DNA of 64,000 nt from an uncultured Lachnospiraceae bacterium (GTDB lineage Bacteria > Bacillota > Clostridia > Lachnospirales > Lachnospiraceae). The position numbers and the translations under genes were made by a program. Below, one piece after another: positions 37,055 to 46,805 of this stretch. The stretch covers positions 1 to 64,000 of the forward strand of contig CACXMK010000031.1 in NCBI GenBank assembly GCA_902768735.1, read 5' to 3'. Every line of letters starts with the position of its first letter. The first letter of the stretch is position 1. Below the pieces are notes generated by a model. It had not been told where the DNA came from and made no database searches. It worked only from the letters and a program-made list of their open reading frames with translations.

Positions 37055-38329
37055 TTACTTGCGGAACAGGTCAGCGATCGCGTCTTCCTTCAGCTGTGCT
37101 CCGATCACGCAGATCTTTCCGGTGACGTCCGCCGCGCCAAAACGCACTTCAGTCTCTCCGGGAACGTAATCAAAGTGTATCCAACGTCCTTCCGTATCGG
37201 GGACCATTCCCTTGGAGCGGAGGATAATGCCGTAAGTCTCCTCATCCTCCAATTTACTGAGGATCTGCCGGATCTCCTCCTCAGAGTACTTCGCGGGTGT
37301 CTCCATGCCCCAGCTGACAAAGATCTCGTCCGCGTCATGGCCGCCATGATGGTGGTGGTGATGATGATGGTCATGGGACCTGTAGATCCTGTTCCCCTTC
37401 TCGTCGACGACCACTTCTGCGTGATCATGATCGTGATCATCGTCATCATGATCGTGGTGATGATGGTGGTGATGCTCGTGCTCATCCTCGTCGTCGTCAT
37501 CATGATCGTGGTGATGATGGTGATGCTCATGCTCATCCTCGTCATCATCATGGTGATGATGGTGGTGATGCTCGTGCTCATCCTCGTCGTCATCATGATC
37601 ATGGTGATGATGGTGATGCTCATGTTCATCCTCGTCGTCATGATCGTGATGATGGTGATGATGCTCATGCTCCTCTTCTTCATCATGATCATGTTCTTCC
37701 AGGAATTCCTTGAGAAGTTCTGCCTGAAGGTCCGCTCCGCCCTCGATCGCAGCGAGGATCTGTTTGCCGTCAAGCTCAGCGATCGGTGTTGTAATGATCG
37801 TCGCCTTCTTGTTATGGGCTCGAAGGATCTCCACGCATTCCGCGATCTTCGCGTCACTGGCCTTGTCTGTCCTTGTAAGGATGATCGTACCGGCGTACTC
37901 GATCTGATTGGCGAAAAACTCGCCGAAATTCTTCAGATAGAGCTTGCACTTGGAAGCATCCACTACTGCGACAGCGCTGTTCAGCTCCATGTCAGAGCCC
38001 TCCGCAGCACCCTGAACAGCCTCCATGATATCGGATAGCTTTCCGACACCTGAGGGCTCGATCAGGATCCTTTCAGGCTCGTAGGTCTTCATAACTTCTC
38101 TGAGCGCCGTTCCGAAATCACCTACAAGAGAGCAGCAGATGCATCCGGAGTTCATCTCTCGGATCTCGATCCCTGCCTCTTTTAAAAATCCACCGTCAAT
38201 GCCGATCTCGCCGAATTCATTTTCGATCAGGACCACACGCGTGCCCGCCAGCGCGTCCGCGATGAGTTTTTTGATCAGTGTAGTCTTTCCTGCGCCGAGA
38301 AATCCGGAGACAATATCGATCTTGGTCAT
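37055..38329 (-). CDS. CobW-family GTPase with a long His/Asp metal-binding region
   Basis: COG0523 metallochaperone-type GTPase of 424 residues. Walker A GFLGAGKTT at 9-17, the CICC metal motif at 63-66, and a C-terminal CobW domain (from about 335, VRFGAADVTGKICVIGAQL). Between them, residues 213-302 are five tandem units of 15-17 residues made almost only of His, Asp and Glu, plus a run of eight His near 321-328. Such regions bind zinc, nickel or cobalt. Start has GAAGGG. It forms a pair with the CobW-DUF1980 gene; zinc transfer to client enzymes is a reasonable inference. Confidence 0.93.
   Translation of the reverse strand: MTKIDIVSGFLGAGKTTLIKKLIADALAGTRVVLIENEFGEIGIDGGFLKEAGIEIREMNSGCICCSLVGDFGTALREVMKTYEPERILIEPSGVGKLSDIMEAVQGAAEGSDMELNSAVAVVDASKCKLYLKNFGEFFANQIEYAGTIILTRTDKASDAKIAECVEILRAHNKKATIITTPIAELDGKQILAAIEGGADLQAELLKEFLEEHDHDEEEEHEHHHHHHDHDDEDEHEHHHHHHDHDDDEDEHEHHHHHHHDDDEDEHEHHHHHHDHDDDDEDEHEHHHHHHHDHDDDDHDHDHAEVVVDEKGNRIYRSHDHHHHHHHHGGHDADEIFVSWGMETPAKYSEEEIRQILSKLEDEETYGIILRSKGMVPDTEGRWIHFDYVPGETEVRFGAADVTGKICVIGAQLKEDAIADLFRK
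37424..37693 (-). repeat. Coding tandem repeat for the His/Asp region
   Basis: Five units of about 45-51 nt encode HEHHHHHHDHDDEDE-like blocks. Unit lengths differ by whole codons, so copy number can vary without a frameshift. Confidence 0.9.
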
Positions 38330-38410: not shown

Positions 38411-38654
38411 ATATGAGCAGAGCTGTAAGCCGGGTTATGTCTTGGACGATCATCTGTCTAGGACCGCCGTCGCCGACGGCCTCAAGCGACCCACCTGAGA
38501 GCTGGCCGGGCAAGCTCACTGCTCTCGTTTCGGTCTTGCTTCGGATGGGGTTTACATGGCTCTCCGTGTTACCACGAAGACGGTAGTCTCTTACACTGCC
38601 TTTCCACCCTTACGGGCAGGACCTGCAGCCGCGATCGCCCGCCCTGCTCATTTC
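38411..38654 (-). ncRNA. rnpB: RNase P RNA, internally deleted in this sequence
   Basis: Catalytic RNA for tRNA 5' maturation. Both ends are present: P1 forms between ATGAGCAG (38651-38644) and CTGCTCAT (38420-38413), and the promoter is in place. Conserved 3' parts are clear: GTAAGGGTGGAAAGG, GTAAGAGACTACCG, AAACCCCATC, GGTCGCTTGAG, AGATGATCGTCC and ACATAACCCGGCTTAC. The universally conserved GAGGAAAGTCC (5' P4 strand) and the segment after it are missing: CGATCGCGGCTGCAGG (5' P2/P3) runs directly into TCCTGCCCGTAAGGG. The RNA is about 244 nt versus roughly 350-400 usual. As written it should be inactive. Confidence 0.85.
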
Positions 38655-38660
38655 TACTGC

Positions 38661-38689
38661 ATTTTACTCGCAGGGTTGATTGTTGTCAA
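38661..38689 (-). promoter_or_regulatory. rnpB promoter
   Basis: On the minus strand TTGACA (38684-38689), 17 nt, TAAAAT (38661-38666). The predicted start at about 38654 coincides with the base of helix P1, showing that the rnpB 5' end is native. Confidence 0.75.
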
Positions 38690-38698
38690 CTTCCGCTA

Positions 38699-40360
38699 TC
38701 ACTCAGCTGTAAAACAGCTGCCGCCAACAAATTCCCTGAGAATGGAGTTTGTGGGTACCGACGCCGTATCTACGCCGACAAAATACTCCATGAATTTGAG
38801 GAGGCGCTTTGCCTCATAAAACTCCGGTTCGTTCGGTCTGATGTTAAACAGAAGCGGTTCCGCAAACTGCTTGATAACTGACAGCTCGTAGATCAGTACG
38901 GAATTGAAGACCGCGTCTGCGCCGTCCTGGAATGGGAAGATATTCTGGTCTTCTCCAGCTCTCACCTTTGGCCATACCTGGAAAGTGTGCTGTGCGGTAT
39001 TGCCTCTTGTTCTCGCGTCCCTTACCATGCGGCGCAGGAGTCTTGCATCCGTCGAAGGAATCCTGTTGTGCTCGTCAATATTCAGGCTCGTCATACAGCT
39101 GATATAGATCTTGAATTTGTTCTCTTCGGGAAGGTCTTCCGTGGCTTTGGGGTTAAGCCCGTGAATGCCTTCAATGATCAGGATATCATCCGCGTTGAGC
39201 TTAAGATACTTTCCTTTGTACACCCTTTTCCCGGCCTTGAAGTCGAACTGCGGCAGTTCGATCGTTTCCCCTTCGAGAAGGTCCAGCATATCGTCGTTGA
39301 ACAGCTCGATATCGACCGCTTCAAATACTTCGTAATTGTAATTCCCGTCGATATCGATCGGGGTCATCTCGCGGTTTACGAAATAGTTGTCCATACTGAT
39401 AATATGCGGTTTGAGGCCGAACGAACGGAGCTGTACCGCAAGCCTGTGGGCAAACGTGGTCTTACCTGATGAACTCGGTCCGGCTACAAGGACGAACTTT
39501 GTTCCCTTCCTGTCAAAAATCTGCGCGGCGATCTCCCCGATCCTGCGCTCCTGCAGCGCTTCCTGCACAAGGATCATATCGCTTATGCTTCCGCCGCAGA
39601 TAGCGTCGTTGAGATCTCCCACAGTACTTATATTGACAAGGTCTCCCCACTTCGTGGAGAGATAGAGCTGTTCGAACAGGCTCTCCTGTTCCTCGAATTC
39701 TTCGATCTCAAAAGGATTCTCCTGTCTAGGAAGGATCAGAAGCAGTCCGCCGTTGTAAGCTTTGACTTTGAAGAGATTGACGTAGCCGGGAGAAGGGAGC
39801 ATGTACCCGTAAAAATAGTCATAATATCCCTCCATATTGTAGACATTGATGGTCGAACCCCGGCGGTAATGGAACAGTCTTTCCTTGTCACGCATCCCCT
39901 GACGCTTGAAAAGCTCAACGGCATCATCGATCGGATACGTTTTCTTTGTGATCGGCAGGTTCCTGTCCCTTATGCGCCTCATTTCCTCTTCGACCATGGC
40001 GGCAAATTCGTCCGTCACTTTGATCCCGCCGCGGACAGAACAGAAAAAGGCATTTCCGAGCGTGAACTCTATTTTGACATGGACGGTGTTTCCCTGTTCC
40101 TTCATGATATCTCTGACAGCCTTAACGAGCATCATCTGCGCCGTTCTGACATAAGAGTTATGCCCGGCATTGTCGCGCGTCGTTATAAAGGAGATCACAC
40201 CATCCTTTTCTAACCGCTTGTTTAATTCCCGCATCTTGCCGTTAAAAAATACGAGCGCGATGGAGTTGTTATATTGCGGCTGGTATTTCTTCACAATACT
40301 CTCAAATGTAACTCCCTTGTCAAATTGCTGGATCGCTCCTTTGATCATTACGGTTGGCAT
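38699..40360 (-). CDS. Nucleoside (uridine-type) kinase with TGS/ThrRS-like N-terminus
   Basis: Large uridine-kinase-family protein of 553 residues common in Clostridia. The N-terminal 280 residues resemble the TGS and editing-type domains of threonyl-tRNA synthetase (FHYRRGSTINVYNM). The C-terminal kinase has the P-loop GPSSSGKTT near 300 and SMDNYFVNRE, then ILIIEGIHGLNP. The ATG at 40360 follows AAGGAGG by 5 nt; the GTG at 40366 lies inside the ribosome site. The natural substrate of this fused family is not settled. It ends 45 bp before the rnpB start. Confidence 0.9.
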   Translation of the reverse strand: MPTVMIKGAIQQFDKGVTFESIVKKYQPQYNNSIALVFFNGKMRELNKRLEKDGVISFITTRDNAGHNSYVRTAQMMLVKAVRDIMKEQGNTVHVKIEFTLGNAFFCSVRGGIKVTDEFAAMVEEEMRRIRDRNLPITKKTYPIDDAVELFKRQGMRDKERLFHYRRGSTINVYNMEGYYDYFYGYMLPSPGYVNLFKVKAYNGGLLLILPRQENPFEIEEFEEQESLFEQLYLSTKWGDLVNISTVGDLNDAICGGSISDMILVQEALQERRIGEIAAQIFDRKGTKFVLVAGPSSSGKTTFAHRLAVQLRSFGLKPHIISMDNYFVNREMTPIDIDGNYNYEVFEAVDIELFNDDMLDLLEGETIELPQFDFKAGKRVYKGKYLKLNADDILIIEGIHGLNPKATEDLPEENKFKIYISCMTSLNIDEHNRIPSTDARLLRRMVRDARTRGNTAQHTFQVWPKVRAGEDQNIFPFQDGADAVFNSVLIYELSVIKQFAEPLLFNIRPNEPEFYEAKRLLKFMEYFVGVDTASVPTNSILREFVGGSCFTAE

Positions 40361-40444
40361 AGGCACCTCCTTGTATCCTTTTGTGATCCGACACCTTCGG
40401 TATTCTGTCGTTATCCTGTATGGCTGTCTTTTCTCTGCTTTCCT

Positions 40445-46629: not shown

Positions 46630-46703
46630 TGGAACCGACGGGGCTCGAACCCATGACCTCCCGCACGTCAAGCGGACGCTCATCCCAGCTGAGCTACGGT
46701 TCC
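46630..46703 (-). tRNA. tRNA-Val (GAC)
   Basis: 74 nt, acceptor GGAACCG/CGGTTCC, D arm GCTC..GAGC, anticodon loop TTGACGT (GAC), T loop TTCGAGC, discriminator A. CCA is not encoded. Confidence 0.95.
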
Positions 46704-46731: not shown

Positions 46732-46805
46732 TGGAACCGACGGGGCTCGAACCCGTGACCTCTCGCGTGTGAGGCGAACGCTCATCCCAGCTGAGCTACG
46801 GTTCC
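46732..46805 (-). tRNA. tRNA-Val (CAC)
   Basis: 74 nt, same acceptor and D/T arms as the neighbouring tRNA-Val; anticodon loop CTCACAC gives CAC. It is separated from the GAC gene by 28 bp and probably co-transcribed. CCA is not encoded. Confidence 0.95.

Follow-up and report, generated by a model that had tools for sequence, protein, structure and literature searches.

The RNase P RNA gene (rnpB) of this uncultured Lachnospiraceae bacterium raises the question of whether a bacterium may live without the catalytic core of RNase P, or whether part of an ordinary gene went missing on the way from the cell to the database. In the window (the whole stretch of 64,000 nt analyzed here), the Rfam covariance model RF00010 matches the minus strand with 126.1 bits, against a curated cut-off of 100, and with 131.1 bits in another run, while intact rnpB copies in the genus score 287.7-327.6 bits. 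The match and the alignment with relatives delimit an RNase P RNA gene of class A at 38414..38650 (minus strand), from the 5' strand to the 3' strand of helix P1; the gene measures 237 nt vs. about 360 nt expected. The range originally marked for this gene, 38411-38689, takes in the promoter besides rnpB and lies on the same minus strand.

As assembled, the gene consists of two remnants on the minus strand. The 5' remnant (38619..38650, 32 nt) contains the 5' strand of P1, P2 and the first strand of P3; its positions 3-32 have the same bases as the genus members G003, G013, G067 and G069. The 3' remnant (38414..38618, 205 nt) reaches from the 3' end of P12 as far as the 3' strands of P4 (AACCCGGCTTA) and P1. 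Helix names (P1, P2, P3, P4, P12) follow common usage for RNase P RNAs of class A. The gene thus retains the 3' strand of P4 together with both strands of P1, TGAGCAG and CTGCTCA. The remnants meet at 38618..38619 (minus strand), where 38619 is the last base of CTGCAGGTCC and 38618 the first base of TGCCCGTAAGGG.

A sigma-70-type promoter, TTGACA-17-TAAAAT, can be read from the sequence at 38661..38689 on the minus strand (-35 box 38689-38684, -10 box 38666-38661), with the -10 box ending 10 nt ahead of P1, and TAAAAT likewise stands upstream of rnpB in the relatives' loci L042, L043, L044, L051 and L054. Upstream on the minus strand, an open reading frame at 38699..40366 encodes a putative uridine-kinase-like protein of 555 aa, by which the rnpB locus was located in other members of the genus. 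Downstream, also on the minus strand, an open reading frame at 37055..38329 encodes a 424-aa histidine-rich protein, presumably a CobW-like GTP-binding protein. The locus between kinase and GTP-binding protein is the same place that rnpB occupies in relatives. The first-pass annotation had described an RNase P RNA with promoter, both P1 strands and 3' conserved regions in place, and the RF00010 match and the sequence reading agree with this description.

What is missing can be measured against close relatives, seven of eight of which carry 123-126 nt extra at the junction (the pattern was unmatched in G044): 123-125 nt in G024, G003, G013, G067, G069 and G045, and 126 nt in G049. These values lie within the loss of roughly 100-150 nt that had been estimated from the window alone. 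The absent block comprises the 5' strand of P4 (GAGGAAAGTCC), the following helices, the ACAGA segment and the 5' strand of P12; in the usual helix naming, the absent part starts in the loop of P3, includes the 5' strand of P4 and reaches the 3' strand of P12. Allowing up to one mismatch, neither GAGGAAAGTCCG nor the 5' strand of P4 was found in the 64,000-nt window. With GAGGAAAGTCCG not in the window and 123-126 nt at this place in relatives, the conserved core segment is indeed missing, as the earlier reading had it. All 47 intact rnpB loci of the genus keep GAGGAAAGTCC. Judged from its sequence, rnpB as written would not form a catalytic core, since the missing 123-126 nt include the 5' strand of P4.

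In its locus, promoter, P1, specificity-side helices and 3' conserved segments, the window copy resembles class A RNase P RNA (RF00010) and differs from it in the absence of the 123-126 nt that bear the 5' strand of P4. In reduced RNase P RNAs such as type T, the specificity domain has been lost and the P4 core remains. The window copy is likewise a shortened RNA, yet it is a core strand and not the specificity domain that is missing here.

The part of the RNA that survives looks to be under constraint. Compared with its nearest sequences, those of G003 and G013, the 3' remnant has 198 of 203 aligned bases the same (5 mismatches, 97.5% identity), while the whole 3.3-kb locus is 76-79% identical over the alignments with the three nearest relatives. 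Helix P1 pairs as TGAGC/GCTCA in the window vs. TAAGC/GCTTA in the nearest relatives. Since the P1 strands differ together from those of the nearest relatives, the sequences flanking the junction are mutually consistent, as would be expected for one folded RNA under selection. Such conservation agrees with a gene either whole in the cell or broken very recently; an old relic does not fit. We also considered a chimeric join of two species, and the P1 strands, matching across the junction and jointly different from the nearest relatives, speak against it.

A survey of the genus shows that this interruption has company. We searched 62 genomes with RF00010 and used the upstream kinase, found in 58 of the 62, as a route to the locus where the rnpB match was missing or partial. 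This left 57 judgeable genomes, with G063 and G064 (contig ends within the kinase) and G012, G023 and G054 (no kinase and no rnpB found) set aside. The gene is intact in 46 of the 57 (47 loci, as G069 has two) and interrupted in 11, including the present genome (G000). The contig ends inside rnpB in seven of these (G001, G007, G020, G022, G046, G073 and G077), and runs of N lie inside the gene in two (G011 with 113 N and G041 with 29 N), some of which may be masking by the operator rather than scaffold gaps. The remaining two, the present genome and G071, show losses free of N. All 11 interruptions start at about 32-121 on the 365-nt rnpB of G003, which served as the reference, and the far side, where the alignment gives it (G000, G011, G020, G022 and G071), falls at positions 111-189. 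One contig of G022 (C1) starts at TGCCCGTAAGGG, the exact base where the window sequence resumes. The interruptions sit in or beside a stretch of rnpB that is identical word for word between species.

The neighboring genes give a measure of the background. The kinase gene, used as a control (1665 nt, 4.5 times the length of rnpB), has three contig ends (G014, G063 and G064). In G072 the kinase gene appears as two matches on one contig (L161, G072:C153; residues 2-288 and 370-552), possibly a frame break or an assembly fault. The contig of G058 ends 129 nt upstream of rnpB. Of the 62 genomes, at least 11 have a contig that ends within the histidine-rich gene downstream, which is 1275 nt long (G007, G009, G011, G013, G018, G021, G053, G055, G072, G074 and G075). 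The GTP-binding protein encoded at 37055-38329 has long histidine/aspartate repeats, and the breaks in its gene are possibly due to these repeats. Some contig ends around rnpB are therefore background, as the histidine-rich gene and G058 illustrate. Per base, rnpB is the densest in interruptions of the three genes (11 in 365), and their starts all lie in its first third.

Word sharing between species distinguishes rnpB from the kinase. At sampled starts 49-89 of the G003 rnpB, 31-base words recur in 16-27 of the other 46 loci with an intact gene; for 55-base words the figure is up to 16. In the kinase gene, 31-base words are shared by at most four of 23 others and 55-base words by at most one, while the rnpB genes of 17 of the same genomes as in the kinase comparison reach a maximum word sharing of 17. 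By their titles, the named relatives at this locus are mostly metagenome bins. Among them are a number of RUG records as well as two bins from a single run, SRR873608, so that one data set does contain several species of the genus.

We consider it very likely that about 124 nt of rnpB were lost through a local error in assembling mixed-community DNA, and that the gene in the living cell is probably ordinary and complete. The assembly graph of a community with several species of the genus, which we infer to have co-occurred in one sample, would tangle in the 5' half of rnpB, since this half is the same word for word in many of these species. The usual outcome of such a tangle would be a contig end or a run of N, as in nine of the 11 interrupted genus assemblies. 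In the present genome, as in G071, the assembly probably fused two contig ends directly and left out the block between them. This joining step without N is conjecture, as shared-word tangles normally yield contig ends or N. Because this stretch is also broken in other drafts, an ordinary artefact is probable. Of the three readings offered by the first-pass annotation, a stretch dropped by the assembly is the best supported, given that this part of rnpB is interrupted in 11 of the 57 judgeable genus genomes. The genomes compared here are other species of the genus, none of them conspecific.

A close parallel is the rnpB of RUG14676 (L045 = G071:C29, at G071:C29:32175-32478) from the same genus, which also has an internal loss without N in the same half of the gene. 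It differs in its breakpoints: it retains the 5' strand of P4 and has lost about 60 nt farther downstream. In this G071 gene CCAGGCCAGT is joined to CAGTGTAAGAG, leaving CAGTCAGTG and not one merged repeat copy. That only this one further genus genome shows a join free of N, with other breakpoints, counts against an artefact, as does the second weak spot in the histidine-rich gene downstream of rnpB. A study of metagenome-assembled genomes describes local assembly errors in them and suspects IDBA-UD in particular (PMC7111523). Its community assemblies share gaps and local errors with the case described here; the main text of that paper contains no mention of RNase P.

A sample from the wider family points in the same direction. 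With stricter filters than in the genus search, RF00010 matched rnpB in 386 of 397 family genomes, some of the stronger ones with two or three matches, and found no match in 11. Besides the present genome, 15 were picked by eye for a match that was weak or split, with a best E-value above 1e-70, and the breaks described below are those of these 15. A contig starts at model positions 44-74, within the core, in 11 of the 15 (G098, G168, G211, G244, G328, G348, G384, G408, G439, G441 and G461), and the rnpB of one more, G323, lies beside a run of N that reaches into the core. The interruption thus falls at the shared core stretch in 12 of the 15 (11 contig starts and one N run). In G439 two contigs overlap in the core block of rnpB. 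The other three contigs end further downstream, in G174 shortly past the core, in G190 at about model position 230 and in G447 at about 305; these three breaks outside the core block also count against the artefact. Among the 15 weak matches opened, we saw no internal loss of P4 free of gaps. The P12 region of rnpB appears long or unusual in G384 (L185) and G174 (L194).

Of the explanations that compete with a local assembly error, the best placed, though improbable, is a real and recent deletion that made the copy at 38414-38650 a relic, with a complete rnpB in an unassembled part of the genome. The assembly is a draft of 157 contigs and 85.54% complete, which leaves room for a hidden second copy, and one of the 62 genus genomes, G069, does have two full rnpB matches. 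However, the window copy occupies its conserved place between the kinase and the GTP-binding protein, keeps its promoter and shows no decay. The two loci of G069 (L072 = G069:C133 and L170 = G069:C96) lie on different contigs; their kinases are 86% and 74% identical to the window kinase, and their rnpBs resemble different species groups. With two rnpB loci and two kinase copies from different species groups, G069 is probably a mixed bin. The first-pass annotation had suggested that the true rnpB might be elsewhere; the RF00010 search of the 85.54%-complete assembly gave only the locus at 38414-38650 and two chance-level matches (E 5.45 and 9.27), so this suggestion found no backing. The core block did not turn up in detached form either: the 128-nt block of a relative gave best matches of 26.5 bits (E 3.68), at chance level, when compared with the assembly. 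Because the draft is 85.54% complete and in 157 contigs, absence from the assembly is not proof. As another possible trace of dropped shared sequence we looked for 16S rRNA, which had no match in the assembly, a result of little weight as the same search missed five of 14 control genomes.

Less probable still is a population in which the full gene and a short variant coexist, or a sequencing or amplification step that skipped a structured stretch, with the assembler taking the short form. The stretch lost at the junction is structured in RNase P RNA, and the junction sequence, GCAGG-T-CCTGC, is a small inverted repeat. The break in G071 lies at other positions, however, and the contig ends of other genomes spread over reference positions 38-121, which a tangle of shared words fits better than one hairpin does.

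The least credible group of explanations takes the sequence at face value: an RNase P truly without the 5' strand of P4, one that receives this strand from a separate RNA, or an enzyme that has been replaced. The junction is clean and the rest of rnpB conserved, as such readings would have it. Against them stand the failure to find the relative's block elsewhere in the assembly and the lack of any gap-free internal P4 loss among the 15 weak family matches. As candidates for a separate gene for the missing strand we looked at the two exact GAGGAAAGTCC sites in the assembly; judged by eye, both appear to be protein-coding, probably in radA and ackA. The protein subunit gene rnpA is present in the assembly with an open reading frame, and a search of the 85.5%-complete assembly for PF08745 (PIN_5) gave no matches. 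This family corresponds to HARP, the protein-only RNase P. Nothing found thus points to the very unusual RNase P that had been proposed as a third reading. Two tRNA genes lie on one strand 28 nt apart (46630-46703 and 46732-46805) and, if co-transcribed, would need processing at their 5' ends. That a promoter-bearing, well-kept rnpB without the 5' strand of P4 is complemented by a separate RNA encoded in the unassembled part is equally far-fetched.

The probable local assembly error in mixed-community DNA explains away the striking claim of a bacterium without the catalytic core of RNase P. With 11 of 57 judgeable assemblies interrupted in this genus, our results suggest that drafts assembled from communities break repeatedly in rnpB. 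RNase P RNAs that appear "missing" or "odd" in metagenome bins should therefore be checked for contig ends, runs of N and direct joins before they are given a biological reading.
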